A stretch of DNA of 28,614 nt from the IMG/VR virus record IMGVR_UViG_3300022871_000990, positions 1-28,614 of that record. One strand, written 5' to 3'. The notes under the pieces were generated by a model that ran no database searches, had not been told where the DNA came from, and saw nothing but the letters and a program-made list of their open reading frames with translations. The translations under genes were made by a program, and so were the position numbers. This DNA is from a virus. This document shows, in pieces, positions 3,340 to 24,173 of this stretch (its first letter is position 1; the number at the start of each line of letters is the position of its first letter).

Positions 3340-3368
3340 TTGCCTTCCGAAATGAAACCGTTTATACT
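3340..3368 (+). promoter_or_regulatory. Promoter of HNH endonuclease gene
   Basis: TTGCCT (3340-3345), a 17-base spacer, then TATACT (3363-3368). Equivalent pairs with 17-base spacers stand before the two GIY-YIG genes (TTTACC/TATACT at 8075 and TTTACT/TATAAT at 19471). Each homing endonuclease therefore seems to carry its own promoter. Confidence 0.55.
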
Positions 3369-3371
3369 CTT

Positions 3372-3461
3372 AAGCAGGAATAGGTTGATCACCGAAAAGG
3401 ACGATCCCTTAGTCGTCCCTGTCCTGCTTCTCAAAGCTAAGGCAACAGTAAGGAGTTGCAA
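3372..3461 (+). ncRNA. Structured 5' leader RNA of homing endonuclease (copy 1)
   Basis: Three helices can be drawn. P1 is AAGCAGGA (3372-3379) with TCCTGCTT (3422-3429). P2, nested inside it, is GGACGA (3399-3404) with TCGTCC (3413-3418) and an 8-base loop. P3 is GCAAC (3442-3446) with GTTGC (3455-3459) and an 8-base loop holding the AGGA of the ribosome binding site. The ATG follows at 3462. The same architecture with compensatory changes precedes the genes at 8210 and 19594. Conserved unpaired blocks are AATAGG after P1 and CGAAAAG before P2. It is likely a cis-acting control element; its ligand or partner is unknown. Confidence 0.65.
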
Positions 3462-8074: not shown

Positions 8075-8103
8075 TTTACCTCTGAAATGAAATCACCTAT
8101 ACT
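8075..8103 (+). promoter_or_regulatory. Promoter of GIY-YIG endonuclease gene 1
   Basis: TTTACC (8075-8080), a 17-base spacer, TATACT (8098-8103). The spacer contains GAAATGAAA, also present in the spacer of the promoter at 3340. Confidence 0.5.
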
Positions 8104-8108
8104 ATATG

Positions 8109-8209
8109 GCAGGAATAGGAAAGGACTAATTAACCTTCCCGAAAAGACCGGCCCCACAACCGGCCCTGTCCTGCTTCTCATAAATTGTGGTAACAATGTG
8201 GAGTTGCAA
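8109..8209 (+). ncRNA. Structured 5' leader RNA of homing endonuclease (copy 2)
   Basis: Same architecture as the leader at 3372. P1 is GCAGGA (8109-8114) with TCCTGC (8169-8174). P2 is CCGG (8148-8151) with CCGG (8160-8163) and an 8-base loop. P3 is GTAAC (8190-8194) with GTTGC (8203-8207) and an 8-base loop that holds GTGGA. ATG follows at 8210. P2 has a wholly different sequence from copy 1 but keeps the pairing and loop size; P3 has a U-G in place of C-G. Confidence 0.65.
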
Positions 8210-10702: not shown

Positions 10703-11956
10703 ATGTCCCGGTTGAATCAAATCGCGTTGGAGCTCAGGGAATTATTGGTGGACCAAATGCGACCCTTCAAAGGAGAACGAGTCGCGGTGTTTCTTTCCAG
10801 CGGGACGGATTCCATGTGCGTCCTGCATGCCTTGCTTGCCGCGAAGGCGAAACCCAGAGCGTATTCTTTTTTTATCGAGGGGGAAGAAAATCGGTTTGAT
10901 CCCGTCGTCGCGAAAAAAACCGCTGATTCCATCGGGATCAATTGGACTCCAATCCCGCTGGCATCTGATCCTACCGCCGCCGCTCGCAAAGCCGTTTTGG
11001 GACTGGGCGTTAAAAGCAAATGCGACGTGGAATGCGGTTGGCCGATGGCGGAAGCTTTGCAAGTCGTGGACGAGGCCGTTGTAGTTTCCGGACATGCCGG
11101 AGACGGCCATTTTGGTTTAACGAAAAAAGTGATGATGCACAAAGATCTTTTCGACGTGGAAAGGGATAGGTGCTTTGAAAATCCCGATTACGCGCAGGTG
11201 CGCACGTTGAAGTGGTTCGCCAAATGCTGTGGAAAATTGCTCTTCACCCCGTGGACCGACCCACGGATCATCCAATTATTGCGTGACCTGTCTTGGCGTG
11301 AGTTGAACCACCCGCGCCAAAAAGAAATTGCTCGCCTTGCCTTTGAAAAAGAATGCACCCTTTATCCCCCGAAACTCCATAGCGACCTGCACGCGGCAGG
11401 GACGGGGATTAAAGAGATGTTTCAGCACATTACCGAAGGGACTCGGTTCACGAACCCCGTTGCTGTTTATCATAGAATCAATTCATTGAGTCTCCCCGTG
11501 TTGGTAGGTCAAGCTCCCAGTAAAACTAGTGACGTGGAAAAACCACTTTCAGCTCGTCCCTTGTCCACCTCGTTGTGCCAATTATTGTCGTGCGATTTAT
11601 TGACGTACCTTTCTTCGTTTGAAAGGATCAATTTGTTGAATGCCTGGCCCGGATCTTCAAAGAAGGGGGATCTATTCCCCGCGCGCCTCGGGGCTGAGCG
11701 GGCGAAAGAATTGATCCCCTATTTTCGGGGACGCGAAGTTATCCTATTGGGAAGGAACGTTGCCAAGGCGTTTGGATTGCGCGACGAGTTCCCTCTTTTG
11801 CGGTATCGCCAAGAACACTGTTGCGAGATGGCGGTGGTGCCGCATCCATCGGGGGTAAATCTTTGGTGGAACGATGAAGAAAATAAAAAAGCCGCCGCGA
11901 CCTTTTTGAAATCAGCCATGGAGTCCGTAACGGATAAATTAAGGGGGGGTTTATAA
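10703..11956 (+). CDS. Asparagine-synthetase-like PP-loop ligase fused to a UDG-like domain
   Basis: A 417-residue two-domain protein. Residues 1-245 resemble the ATP-pyrophosphatase domain of asparagine synthetase B: PP-loop FLSSGTDS (30-37), then VVVSGHAGDGHFG (126-138) aligning with AsnB SGEGADELFG, and FTPWTDPRIIQLLRDL (181-196) aligning with 'SPFLDxRLVEFA'. The N-terminal glutaminase domain is absent. Residues about 265-410 look like a uracil-DNA-glycosylase fold: LVGQAPSK (267-274) in the place of GEAPG, VILLGRNVAKAF (346-357), and VVPHPSG (378-384) in the place of the HPS motif. The classic catalytic Asp is not evident, so base binding or flipping is more likely than excision. Inferred role: ATP-dependent amidation of a carboxylated base in DNA. 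AGGAGG precedes the ATG. Confidence 0.72.
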   Translation: MSRLNQIALELRELLVDQMRPFKGERVAVFLSSGTDSMCVLHALLAAKAKPRAYSFFIEGEENRFDPVVAKKTADSIGINWTPIPLASDPTAAARKAVLGLGVKSKCDVECGWPMAEALQVVDEAVVVSGHAGDGHFGLTKKVMMHKDLFDVERDRCFENPDYAQVRTLKWFAKCCGKLLFTPWTDPRIIQLLRDLSWRELNHPRQKEIARLAFEKECTLYPPKLHSDLHAAGTGIKEMFQHITEGTRFTNPVAVYHRINSLSLPVLVGQAPSKTSDVEKPLSARPLSTSLCQLLSCDLLTYLSSFERINLLNAWPGSSKKGDLFPARLGAERAKELIPYFRGREVILLGRNVAKAFGLRDEFPLLRYRQEHCCEMAVVPHPSGVNLWWNDEENKKAAATFLKSAMESVTDKLRGGL

Positions 11957-12708
11957 TGAAAGAAAAAAATAAGAATAAAGACAAGCTGGGAACGTACACG
12001 AACGGCAAGTGGAAGTTCGATGACAAAGTCACAGCATGTTTTGACAACATGTTGGAACGGTCGATTCCTCAATATAAATTGATGCGAGAATTAACCTTCC
12101 GCGTCGGAAGGCGTTTCGCGACTCTTGGAACTGCCGTTGTGGATCTCGGATGCAGTCGCGGCGGTGCTCTTGCAGAGTTTGTGGATGCCAAACGTCCCGA
12201 GGACCAGACGACGTTCATAGGAGTTGAAATTTCAGAACCAATGGCCCTCGCCGCTACCGAACGGTTTGAAAATCGCGACGACGTGGTGATACACCAAATA
12301 GATCTTCGCGAAACGTATCCTCCCGTAGTCACGCGGGACGGGATCTCGTGTGGGTCGTCCCTCACGCTCGCCGTGCTGGTCCTCCAGTTCATTCCCATCG
12401 AACACCGCCATAGGATTATTAAAAAAATATACCAGCAAACAATTTCCGGCGGGGCGTTGATCCTCGTAGAAAAAGTCCTCGGGAACACGGATGAATTGAA
12501 CGCCATGATGGTTCGCGAGTACTATGAGATCAAACGGATGAACGGATATACCGACGACCAAATCGAACGGAAGCGATTGTCCTTGGAAGGAGTTCTGGTC
12601 CCGATCACGGCGCGTTGGAACGAGGACATACTTCGAGAAAGCGGGTTCAGGCAGGTAGATTGTTTCTGGCGCTCGTTGAATTTCGCGGGATGGATCGCTA
12701 TTAAATAA
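11956..12708 (+). CDS. cmoA-like: Carboxy-SAM synthase, CmoA homologue
   Basis: A 250-residue Rossmann SAM enzyme. It aligns along its length with E. coli CmoA as I recall that sequence: [20 protein letters not shown] against [30 protein letters not shown] (61-70, motif I), [16 protein letters not shown] (158-173), and [20 protein letters not shown] (194-213) against [20 protein letters not shown]. R207 matches E. coli R199, the residue that binds the carboxylate of carboxy-SAM, and Y198 of NGY is kept. CmoA makes carboxy-SAM from SAM and prephenate; in bacteria CmoB uses it on tRNA U34. No CmoB-like gene is seen here, but a DNA methyltransferase is. Its start overlaps the ligase stop (TAATG), so the two are coupled. 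Confidence 0.85.
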   Translation: [250 protein letters not shown]

Positions 12709-13742: not shown

Positions 13743-14909
13743 ATGAACCCCGGGTTTTTTAAACAGAGTGTTACTTTTGCGGAAAAATGCGGTGTGGCTT
13801 GCACGCTTGATCGCGACTGCCGCTCTCCCAAGATGCCGGTCACCGGTGAAGGGCGAATGAGGATCCTCATCATTGCTGAAGCACCCGGTGAGCAGGAGGA
13901 CAGGCAGAATACGCAATTCATCGGCCCAGCCGGACAACTCCTTCGCAAGATTCTAGCCGAGCATGGAGTTGACCTTGACCGTGACTGCCGCAAGACAAAT
14001 GCTGTGAGATGCCGACCGCCTGAAAATCGCCGTCCTACGCGTCAAGAGATCGAGGCCTGCCAACAGCACGTCTGGGATGAGATCGCCCGTTCTAGGCCTA
14101 TCCTGACGCTTTTATTGGGGCAAATAGCGGTGGAATCCTTCCTGCTAGGCCGAATAACCAAAATAGGCCAGATCGGACGGTGGCGGGGCATGGCAATTCC
14201 AGACCAAAAAGCCGGGTGCTGGATCTGCCCGACATTCCATCCAAGCTATATTCTTCGTAGCCAGGAAGGAAGAATAATCAGGGGCAAGGCCAAACCAATT
14301 CTACCCACCGAGGAATTGATATTCAGGATGGATTTAGAACAGGCATTGACACTATTGGATAAACCATTTCCGGTCGCTCCTCCTCCTCAAGTAATGTGTG
14401 AGTGGCACTGGAGCACAAAACCCGGTGATACGGTCGCCATCGACTACGAAACTACCGGCCTGAAGCCCTACCGCAAAGGACATCGAATTGTGTCGGCTGG
14501 GATCAGCAATGGTGAATGGGCTTGGGCAGGTGAAATGACACCAAAGTTTGCCCGAAAATGGAAGCTATTGTTGGCCGATCAAAATATTAAAAAGATCGCC
14601 CACAACATGAAGTTCGAGCATCAGTGGGCTGCTCATTGTCTTGATGTGGAAACGCAAGGTTGGTTATGGGACACGATGCTTGCCTCACACATGGTTGATA
14701 ATCGCAAACTTTATTGTAAACTAAAGCACCAAGCGTATATCAACTTTGGTGTACCCGACTGGAGTGATGGCATAGATTTTGAGAACGATGATGACGACTT
14801 CGCTATCCATCCCACCGTGGTTACTGATAAGTTGCTGAGTTACAATGCTCTTGATGCTTTCTGGTGTTACAAATTATATGAGAAACAAATGGAGAAGTTC
14901 AAAAAATGA
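13743..14909 (+). CDS. Family 4 uracil-DNA glycosylase fused to 3'-5' exonuclease
   Basis: A 388-residue fusion. Residues 1-205 are a Fe-S uracil glycosylase of family 4: IAEAPGEQED (45-54), FIGPAGQLL (59-67) and FHPSYIL (165-171). C16, C20, C90 and C106 are placed like the cluster ligands; C90-C106 has the usual 15-residue gap. Residues about 225-388 are the proofreading domain of a family A polymerase: Exo I DYETTG (234-239), Exo II HNMKFE (287-292), Exo III YNALD (367-371). The polymerase domain is encoded by the next gene, overlapping by four bases. Likely function: uracil removal tied to proofreading at the fork. There is no clear ribosome binding site; the start is kept because later starts lose the N-terminal cysteines. 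Confidence 0.85.
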   Translation: MNPGFFKQSVTFAEKCGVACTLDRDCRSPKMPVTGEGRMRILIIAEAPGEQEDRQNTQFIGPAGQLLRKILAEHGVDLDRDCRKTNAVRCRPPENRRPTRQEIEACQQHVWDEIARSRPILTLLLGQIAVESFLLGRITKIGQIGRWRGMAIPDQKAGCWICPTFHPSYILRSQEGRIIRGKAKPILPTEELIFRMDLEQALTLLDKPFPVAPPPQVMCEWHWSTKPGDTVAIDYETTGLKPYRKGHRIVSAGISNGEWAWAGEMTPKFARKWKLLLADQNIKKIAHNMKFEHQWAAHCLDVETQGWLWDTMLASHMVDNRKLYCKLKHQAYINFGVPDWSDGIDFENDDDDFAIHPTVVTDKLLSYNALDAFWCYKLYEKQMEKFKK

Positions 14910-16261
14910 CTCCATTGTCCATGGACGGTTATAAACTCCTGCACGATAGTGCTTTGGTTTTTGCAGACATCGAGGCCACCGGAATCCGTATGGATGTCAA
15001 ATATCTCCATGAACAGGACATAGCTGTTGGAAATGACATTCTTGGTATAGAACGTCAACTTTGGAAGACGAGTGAGGCCAAAGAATGGAAACTTCGGTTC
15101 AAAGATAAGATCAAGTTCAGTGCCACGGCCCAACTGTCCGAAATGCTTTTTAAGCAATGGAAATACAAGCCCACCAAAACCACTCGGAAGGGTCGGGCAT
15201 CTGTCGATGATGAAGTGCTTCGTAAGATCAACAGTCCATTCACCCGACTCATTTTACAGCATCGAAAGTTGAGCACAGTAAGAAACACGTTCCTTTCCGG
15301 TTTGTTGGAGAATCAATTAAATGGGTTCCTACACCCATCTTTCAACTTGCATACGGTACTGAGTTATAGAGGGAGTTGTCATGGTCCAAACTTTCAAAAT
15401 CAACCCGTGCGTGATCCTGTTCAAGGAGAGATTGTCCGGAAGGCGTTCCTTCCCCTCATTCCAGAGCACCAGTTTGGGGAGATTGACTATAAAGGAAACG
15501 AGGTTGTCAGCAACGCTTGCTATAATCATGACCCAAACCTGGTGGCTTACATCAAGGATCCAACTAAGGACATGCATGAAGATTCCGCCAAGAACTGTTT
15601 CATCCTCCAACCAAAACAGATTGGGGAGATGATCCGATACGTCGGGAAGAACGGATTTACCTTCCCGGAATTCTACGGTAGCTATTTTATCAACATTGCT
15701 CCGGCTATGTGGTGGGCGATTACGGAGCATGGACTTACAACGGAGGATGGAATTCCTTTGTACCTCCATTTGAGGAATGAAGGAATTTCTAATGAGGAGG
15801 AATTTATAGACCACATCCAACAAGTGGAGCAACATTTTTGGGACGAGCGTTTTCCAACCTTTGCCAAGTGGAAAGTCAAGTGGTATGAAGCGTACCAGAG
15901 GAAAGGGTATTTTGACTTGCTTACCGGTTTCCGGTGTCAAGGTCCCATGCGTAAAAACGAAGTGTGCAACTATCCTGGGCAAGGAACAGCATTTCATTTT
16001 CTATTGTGGGGAATGGTGCGATTACACGAATGGTTAGTCAACAATGAAATGAAAACTCAAATACTCGGTGAAATACATGATTCAATTGTGATATCCTTCC
16101 ACCCGGATGAGACCATGACCGTGTTGCGTAAGGCTCGCAAGATTATGTGTGTGGACATTAGAAAGCACTGGAAATGGATTAACGTCCCGATGAGCATAGA
16201 AGCGGAAGTCGCCCCTGTGGGAAAATCGTGGCAGGAAAAACAACCTATGGAGATATCATGA
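14906..16261 (+). CDS. DNA polymerase I family, polymerase domain only
   Basis: A 451-residue family A polymerase lacking 5' and 3' exonuclease domains. A template-binding segment reads SYRGSCHGPNFQNQP. Motif A is GEIDYKGNEV with catalytic D194, in place of the usual DYSQIE. Motif B is IRYVGKNGFTFPEFYGSY, with K248 and Y257, and an unusual GFTFPEF instead of the NFG turn. Motif C is EIHDS with H391-D392. All catalytic acids are present. The proofreading domain is on the preceding gene, so the holoenzyme is split. The start overlaps the upstream stop and the stop overlaps the next start (ATGA), a tightly coupled unit. Confidence 0.88.
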   Translation: MTPLSMDGYKLLHDSALVFADIEATGIRMDVKYLHEQDIAVGNDILGIERQLWKTSEAKEWKLRFKDKIKFSATAQLSEMLFKQWKYKPTKTTRKGRASVDDEVLRKINSPFTRLILQHRKLSTVRNTFLSGLLENQLNGFLHPSFNLHTVLSYRGSCHGPNFQNQPVRDPVQGEIVRKAFLPLIPEHQFGEIDYKGNEVVSNACYNHDPNLVAYIKDPTKDMHEDSAKNCFILQPKQIGEMIRYVGKNGFTFPEFYGSYFINIAPAMWWAITEHGLTTEDGIPLYLHLRNEGISNEEEFIDHIQQVEQHFWDERFPTFAKWKVKWYEAYQRKGYFDLLTGFRCQGPMRKNEVCNYPGQGTAFHFLLWGMVRLHEWLVNNEMKTQILGEIHDSIVISFHPDETMTVLRKARKIMCVDIRKHWKWINVPMSIEAEVAPVGKSWQEKQPMEIS

Positions 16262-19470: not shown

Positions 19471-19499
19471 TTTACTTCTTAAAAGGAATATAATATAAT
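19471..19499 (+). promoter_or_regulatory. Promoter of GIY-YIG endonuclease gene 2
   Basis: TTTACT (19471-19476), a 17-base spacer, TATAAT (19494-19499). The -10 is perfect, and the spacing equals that of the other two homing endonuclease promoters. Confidence 0.6.
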
Positions 19500-19503
19500 G
19501 TAT

Positions 19504-19593
19504 GGCAGAAATAGGGTAGCTCCCGAAAAGATGGACACGACTACCATCCTGTTCTGCCTGTTCTTAGTCGCCACAACTAAAGTCGGAGTTGTT
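19504..19593 (+). ncRNA. Structured 5' leader RNA of homing endonuclease (copy 3)
   Basis: P1 is GGCAGAA (19504-19510) with TTCTGCC (19552-19558). P2 is GATGG (19530-19534) with CCATC (19544-19548). P3 is ACAACT (19573-19578) with AGTTGT (19587-19592) and an 8-base loop containing the GG of the ribosome binding site. ATG follows at 19594. Compared with copies 1 and 2, P1, P2 and P3 all change on both strands while keeping pairing. AATAGG after P1 and CCCGAAAAG before P2 are conserved. Confidence 0.65.
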
Positions 19594-23843: not shown

Positions 23844-24173
23844 GGGCGCGACATGGATTCGACGCTGACAGGTAGCAGAGAGATGCGTGCCGGGGTTGGT
23901 CGGTTGGCCCCGTTATCAAGCCGACTGCATGATACTCGCCTACGAGTACAAAACGGCGGCTTAAAGTCGCCTAGGAACCCGGAGAGGCGCGGAAGTATCC
24001 GGCAGTACGACTCGCACATCCGCATGATGGGGTTTGTCCGTAGGCCGACAGGAAACGGACTGGTGGTAGGTGTCTATCCAGACGCCCCAGTTGCCGGACT
24101 TAAACCGGATATGCGCGTAGAGTCTCCTGTGAACTGACTGCGGACGGGGGTTCGATTCCCCCCGCGTCCACCA
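23844..24173 (+). ncRNA. ssrA: Transfer-messenger RNA (tmRNA)
   Basis: Complete one-piece tmRNA of 330 bases. The acceptor stem GGGCGCG (23844-23850) pairs with CGCGTCC (24163-24169); its third pair is G-U, the alanine identity element. GACATGGATTCGACG follows the 5' strand, as in bacterial tmRNA. The T-arm is GGGGG-TTCGATT-CCCCC (24146-24162), with discriminator A and encoded CCA (24171-24173). Pseudoknot 1 (CGGGG/CCCCG with TCGG/CCGA, near 23891-23925) aligns with E. coli, including CGGTTGGCC. The resume codon is GCC (23938), preceded by ATACTC where E. coli has ATAGTC. The tag reads AYEYKTAA, then TAA (23962-23964) inside a GGCG/CGCC hairpin. It would rescue stalled ribosomes and tag products. 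Confidence 0.93.

Follow-up and report, generated by a model that had tools for sequence, protein, structure and literature searches.

The preQ1-II and SAM-II elements are translational riboswitches with pseudoknots that involve the Shine-Dalgarno (SD) sequence, and the C4 RNA of the phages P1 and P7 targets repeated sites around the ribosome binding site (RBS) downstream in the same operon. The int-alpA RNA (Rfam entry RF02996) is typed by Rfam as an sRNA, and its name implies an integrase/alpA neighborhood. For the homing endonuclease genes of the T4 type (I-TevI, mobE, and segB), hairpins have been described that sequester the RBS; these hairpins are single and simple and are present only on the long early and middle transcripts, the late transcripts beginning too far in to form them (PMC2988022).

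The DNA analysed here (the window) is a viral stretch of 28,614 nucleotides (IMG/VR record IMGVR_UViG_3300022871_000990, positions 1 to 28,614), which carries three homing endonuclease genes, all on the plus strand. The first (P0001, 3462-4106, 214 aa) lies between helicase and primase genes and encodes an HNH homing endonuclease, as assigned by a PHROG match at 3.6e-13. The second (P0002, 8210-8911, 233 aa) follows a DnaB-like helicase gene, and the third (P0003, 19594-20112, 172 aa) lies upstream of a UvsX-like recombinase gene; both encode GIY-YIG/NUMOD3 homing endonucleases, which are 40% identical, and the comparison of the HNH protein with P0002 gives no meaningful relation. The same phage replication-gene contig has a full one-piece tmRNA gene (23844-24173; Rfam 112.5 bits, ARAGORN tag AYEYKTAA), phage-borne tmRNA being uncommon, and a tRNA methyltransferase-like gene in the replication region (11956-12708; phrog_4752, 1.2e-67). 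Its DNA polymerase (phrog_17, 13743-16261) is encoded by two neighboring ORFs with an ATGA overlap (14906), which match the profile positions 475-829 and 836-1233; the gene may be naturally split, or a frame change may be involved.

Each of the three homing endonuclease genes is preceded by a leader for which a sequence-only reading had proposed three helices, P1, P2, and P3. The leaders are indeed found at the places proposed, with the stems described, both in the sequence and in the fold. The P2 pairing, which is the hairpin P2b in the description below, is kept while its sequence changes (GGACGA/TCGTCC, CCGG/CCGG, and GATGG/CCATC in copies A, B, and C, respectively), and P3 has in all three copies an 8-base loop with the SD just before the ATG. 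The proposed layout is nevertheless incomplete, as it lacks the hairpin P2a inside P1, the pseudoknot, the alternative pairing with the SD, and the promoters.

In copy A, which including its promoter covers the span 3340-3461, a sigma70-like promoter (TTGCCT-17-TATACT, 3340-3368) precedes the int-alpA domain (3373-3428), as defined by Rfam, by our family model, and by the fold. P1 (3373-3379/3422-3428) is the closing stem of a three-way junction with the two hairpins P2a (3383-3385/3391-3393) and P2b (3399-3404/3413-3418, loop 3405-3412), between which the GAAAA joint (3394-3398) is located. Downstream are the strand CTAAGG (3437-3442) and the P3 hairpin (GCAAC/GTTGC, 3442-3459), with the SD in the loop 3447-3454. 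In copy B, the promoter (TTTACC-17-TATACT, 8075-8103) is followed by an int-alpA domain with an enlarged P2a (8108-8174), having P1 at 8109-8114/8169-8174 and P2b at 8148-8151/8160-8163 (loop 8152-8159), and by the strand TTGTGG (8185-8190) and P3 (GTAAC/GTTGC, 8190-8207, loop 8195-8202). In copy C, the promoter (TTTACT-17-TATAAT) is at 19471-19499 and the int-alpA domain at 19504-19558, with P1 at 19504-19510/19552-19558, P2a at 19514-19516/19522-19524, and P2b at 19530-19534/19544-19548 (loop 19535-19543), whereas the strand TAGTCG is at 19565-19570 and P3 (ACAACT/AGTTGT) at 19573-19592, with its loop at 19579-19586. All these features are on the plus strand. The identities over promoter and RNA are 71% (A-B), 67% (B-C), and 55% (A-C), so that the HNH leader most resembles that of a GIY-YIG gene. 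The same RNA stands before one HNH and two GIY-YIG genes, in agreement with the earlier proposal that the leader is independent of the enzyme family, and constitutes one modular expression leader common to unrelated homing endonucleases.

The assignment of these leaders to the int-alpA family is based on two covariance models. The Rfam model matches copy A at 41.8 bits and copy C at 36.2 bits (gathering score 35.8); copy B scores below this cut-off, probably because of its larger P2a. A second model, R1, is based on 54 int-alpA sequences, all taken from other genomes and none from the window. It finds exactly three matches in the window, which are the three leaders (E = 1.8e-9 for copy C, 4.7e-8 for copy A, and 1.5e-3 for copy B), and every match terminates on an ATG. 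The window leaders have P1 around two hairpins and the UAG/CGAAAAG/CCUG joints, whose UA, GAAAA, and CU parts are near-invariant. At the closing position of P1, all three copies have A and G where the family has a C-G pair, which indicates that the window leaders belong to a divergent int-alpA branch. In the family, covariation is seen for 7 of the 8 pairs of P1 and for 2 of the 3 pairs of P2a. The neighbors in the window are helicase, primase, DnaB, and UvsX genes and not an integrase or alpA; since an integrase is found upstream in 25 of 92 members of the wider family, the integrase/alpA location is a naming habit and not a requirement, and it is not part of the Rfam model.

The sequence-only reading had suggested a covariance search for further relatives, with the absence of additional hits counting against it; the outcome was the opposite, and hundreds of relatives were found. 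In INPHARED, no phage nearly identical to the window phage was found, and blastn with the leader of copy A gave chance-level matches only, while the Rfam int-alpA consensus gave partial int-alpA matches. The initial viral pattern search returned near-identical records of this phage and chance matches, and nothing else.

In all three window copies, a sigma70-like site (spacer 17 nt) ends 4 nt before P1. Sites of this kind occur in the window at about the expected frequency (29 in its first 20 kb, compared with 27 expected), and the unusual point is the identical offset in three of three copies, not the presence of the site. In four samples of the family, a TATAAT-like hexamer is present just before P1 in 5/15, 23/48, 24/78, and 11/91 elements, compared with 0.2, 1.1, 3.0, and 0.5, respectively, in equal-sized zones further upstream. 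This enrichment, together with the shared offset, suggests that in many cases the int-alpA RNA probably starts its own transcript.

The loop of P2b is complementary to two strands of the same leader: the strand directly before P3, with which it can form a pseudoknot and which is referred to below as the decoy, and the SD-bearing segment of the P3 loop. The pairs of loop and decoy are CCTTAG (3407-3412) with CTAAGG in copy A, CCACAA (8154-8159) with TTGTGG in copy B, and CGACTA (19538-19543) with TAGTCG in copy C, and the second partners in the P3 loop are TAAGG (3449-3453), TGTGG (8197-8201), and AGTCG (19581-19585), respectively. Decoy and SD segment thus form a near repeat that differs from copy to copy, and the three strands covary between the copies, the core of the loop being CCTTA in A, CCACA in B, and CGACT in C. 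The duplex energies of the loop with its own decoy and SD strands are -6.5 and -5.3 kcal/mol in A, -7.3 and -7.4 in B, and -7.1 and -7.1 in C, whereas pairing with the strands of the other copies is -4.6 kcal/mol or weaker. Both pairings are new relative to the Rfam model, which holds neither of them; priority over the original description of the family is not claimed. Minimum free energy folding alone predicts neither the pseudoknot nor the loop-loop kiss for the window leaders, and the unconstrained minimum of copies B and C deviates partly from the family fold. The purine-rich, SD-like character of many decoy strands would also fit a constitutive leader for ribosome loading, in which the decoy is a standby site, the structure protects the mRNA, and there is no off state. 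This explanation is improbable, as the strand of copy C and of the GACGA-type elements, although not SD-like, has remained complementary to the P2b loop.

The two pairings were also assessed across the family, using a search pattern in which only CTAG, CGAAAAGCGG, and CCGCCTG were fixed, such that the loop and the downstream strands were unconstrained. This pattern yields at least 240 stretches, and the test set consists of 182 non-redundant int-alpA RNAs among the matches listed in which a start codon follows P1 at a distance of 22-46 nt; the start codons of the relatives were assigned mechanically, and several of the relatives are MAG contigs. Among these 182 elements, 152 have a 5-nt complement of the loop at the decoy position (14-30 nt before the start codon), 127 have one at the SD position (3-12 nt before the start codon), and 112 have both. 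When the loops are swapped between elements, the means over 200 trials are 21, 27, and 11, respectively, with maxima of 34, 39, and 19. With a single element per distinct loop, the counts are 101 (decoy), 84 (SD), and 72 (both) of 127, compared with 14, 18, and 6 for swapped loops. A clean 5-nt match is missing at the decoy position in about 16% of the relatives and at the SD in about 30%, in part as a result of the mechanical choice of start codon. The sites are distributed bimodally, at 4-12 and at 17-26 nt before the start codon. In a second, independent sample, found via the P2a side only and with GACG, GCAG, and GCCG among its P2b stems, the decoy complement is present in 24, the SD complement in 26, and both in 16 of 37 elements (3.9, 4.4, and 1.4 with swapped loops). 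A P3 stem of at least 4 bp around the SD is formed in 84% of the elements, compared with 40% when the flanks are swapped. Clear cases occur in Planctomycetota, Hydrogenedentota, Chloroflexota, Nitrospirota, and Firmicutes, and in one element (L113) a 9-mer that matches the P2b loop is common to decoy and SD.

These data bear on the reading in which the RNA acts in trans on other mRNAs and its complementarity to the downstream strands is incidental, a reading in line with the Rfam sRNA type. It is strongly disfavored by the loop-swap test, as the changes in loop, decoy, and SD are matched locus by locus, and also by the fixed distance of the RNA from the start codon. Moreover, the three copies in this one phage have mutually nonmatching loops, which argues against a common trans target, and overall a trans-acting sRNA of this kind is very improbable.

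The genes behind the leader are very diverse across the family and include replication initiators (DUF1376), integrase-adjacent genes, methylases, and others, and the homing endonucleases among them belong to three fold families. On the phage contigs of this second sample, found via the P2a side, 17 of 50 leader genes are of homing endonuclease types (HNH/NUMOD4, GIY-YIG, and endonuclease VII), and many of the remaining ones encode DUF1376-type replication proteins. As counted by phmmer, with only matches from other contigs being scored, 12 of 35 leader genes are homing endonuclease-like, compared with 12 of 656 other genes (Fisher p = 7e-11), a comparison biased in favor of enrichment, as the queries were mostly leader genes, and biased against it, as 3 of the 12 "other" genes (on L335, L324, and L348) have a leader according to R1. 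The contig L335 has, at 860-2710, three int-alpA leaders with three different loops, as in the window; two of these certainly precede nuclease genes (HNH and endonuclease VII), and the third is located where a nuclease-like ORF begins. Homing endonuclease genes are strongly enriched behind the RNA in phages; the RNA itself belongs to a family already listed in Rfam, is not new to this phage, and also precedes other genes. A leader specific for homing endonucleases is rejected, given this diversity, as is inheritance of the leader together with the GIY-YIG gene, since the leader is absent from the relatives of the window nucleases in other phages (GIY-YIG at 40-45% identity). The linkage to three homing endonucleases could also point to a mark recognized at the DNA level during mobility, such as a recombination or cleavage site, as the sequence-only reading had considered. 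This idea finds no support and is extremely improbable, because it is RNA pairing in the register of the start codon that is conserved and not the sequence, because the RNA also precedes replication and other genes, and because homing endonuclease relatives in other phages do without it.

Some further occurrences of the RNA were noted. In the set L276-L376, the leader is very often found in front of genes for DUF1376-type phage replication proteins (MHYY..IGDY). In Escherichia coli elements beside yicC (L030, L031, and L032), it lies between the integrase and the next gene, and a C4 RNA and isrK are located farther down the same element, which therefore combines two RNA controls that resemble each other in outline. 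In another E. coli locus (L034, 2980-3047), it is flanked by an integrase and a cluster of BREX defence genes, and the ORF behind it appears disrupted relative to L033.

It is likely that each leader is an int-alpA RNA that switches the translation of its own downstream gene in cis. Family membership, the two pairings, the three-way covariation, P3, the position at the start codon, and the promoter-like sites are read directly from the sequence. Translation control remains the best reading, as had been proposed; its key element, absent from the sequence-only reading, would be the choice of the P2b loop between SD and decoy. In the envisaged mechanism, the promoter would initiate the RNA at or near P1, and P1 would close the three-way junction, which displays the P2b loop. 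With the loop on the decoy strand (pseudoknot), the SD in the P3 loop would be accessible to ribosomes, relieving the block; with the loop on the SD-bearing P3 loop (loop-loop kiss), the start would be blocked. As the two pairings are predicted to be mutually exclusive and nearly isoenergetic, anything that biases the junction would set the output. Such a bias might come from a ligand, a protein, or the order and speed of folding, in which the decoy strand is made first; the open state may then form by default and be reset later. Alternatively, the junction may sense and respond to a signal.

The closest rival of this cis switch is an antisense RNA that acts like C4, in which a processed or terminated P1-P2a-P2b sRNA pairs with the SD in trans at its own locus, causing autorepression, the decoy being a second target or a lock. 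The common outline of an outer stem with two hairpins, the co-occurrence of both RNAs in the same E. coli elements, the Rfam sRNA type, and a U-rich stretch about 7 nt long directly after P1 are in agreement with such a released RNA. However, a terminator at this place is not a general feature: the case for an intrinsic terminator is weak, as at least 6 T in the first 8 positions after P1 are present in only 7% of the elements, and the tracts of the window copies are short and mixed. The fixed register of the decoy between P1 and P3 is also more natural for a switch in cis, and the C4 model (RF01695) gives no match in the window at the gathering score or at E <= 5. Altogether, this alternative is unlikely.

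More speculatively, int-alpA could be a large, unrecognized class of ligand- or signal-responsive translational switches of mobile elements in many phyla, serving homing endonucleases, phage replication initiators, and integrase-linked genes, in which an anti-SD loop pairs with either the SD or a decoy that evolved as its copy, with dozens of mutually orthogonal versions; we put this forward tentatively, as a possibility short of an even chance. The covariation missing from the Rfam model provides a testable cis function for a family stated only as sRNA, and the many natural triples of loop, decoy, and SD are ready-made orthogonal pairs for tests of RNA switches. Should the junction act as a sensor, it would reveal when mobile genes choose to act.

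When compared with the known systems, the window leaders have P1, P2a, P2b, and the UA/GAAAA/CU joints in common with RF02996. They differ in that the Rfam model ends before P3, has neither the pseudoknot nor the SD pairing, and is typed as an sRNA, whereas in the window P1 has no C-G closing pair, P2a is clearly larger in copy B, and every copy precedes a homing endonuclease gene. The likeness to C4 (RF01695, P1/P7-type phages) includes, besides the outer stem with two hairpins, a loop complementary to the downstream RBS region; the junction sequence is unlike that of int-alpA, and C4 is processed and trans-acting, whereas here the register and the decoy suggest action in cis. As in the T4-type cases, the genes concerned encode homing endonucleases, their RBS coincides with an RNA structure, and a promoter lies close upstream. 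In the window, however, the SD lies in or overlaps the 8-base P3 loop and not inside a stable stem, and the leaders are conserved three-way junctions with a two-target loop that start at the promoter. The preQ1-II and SAM-II riboswitches have in common with int-alpA a conserved junction, a pseudoknot or loop pairing with the SD, and the start-codon register; the likeness to the riboswitch class lies in the conserved junction and the putative two-state pairing. In contrast to these riboswitches, each of which serves one pathway, int-alpA has a duplicated decoy of the SD strand and precedes diverse genes of mobile elements.
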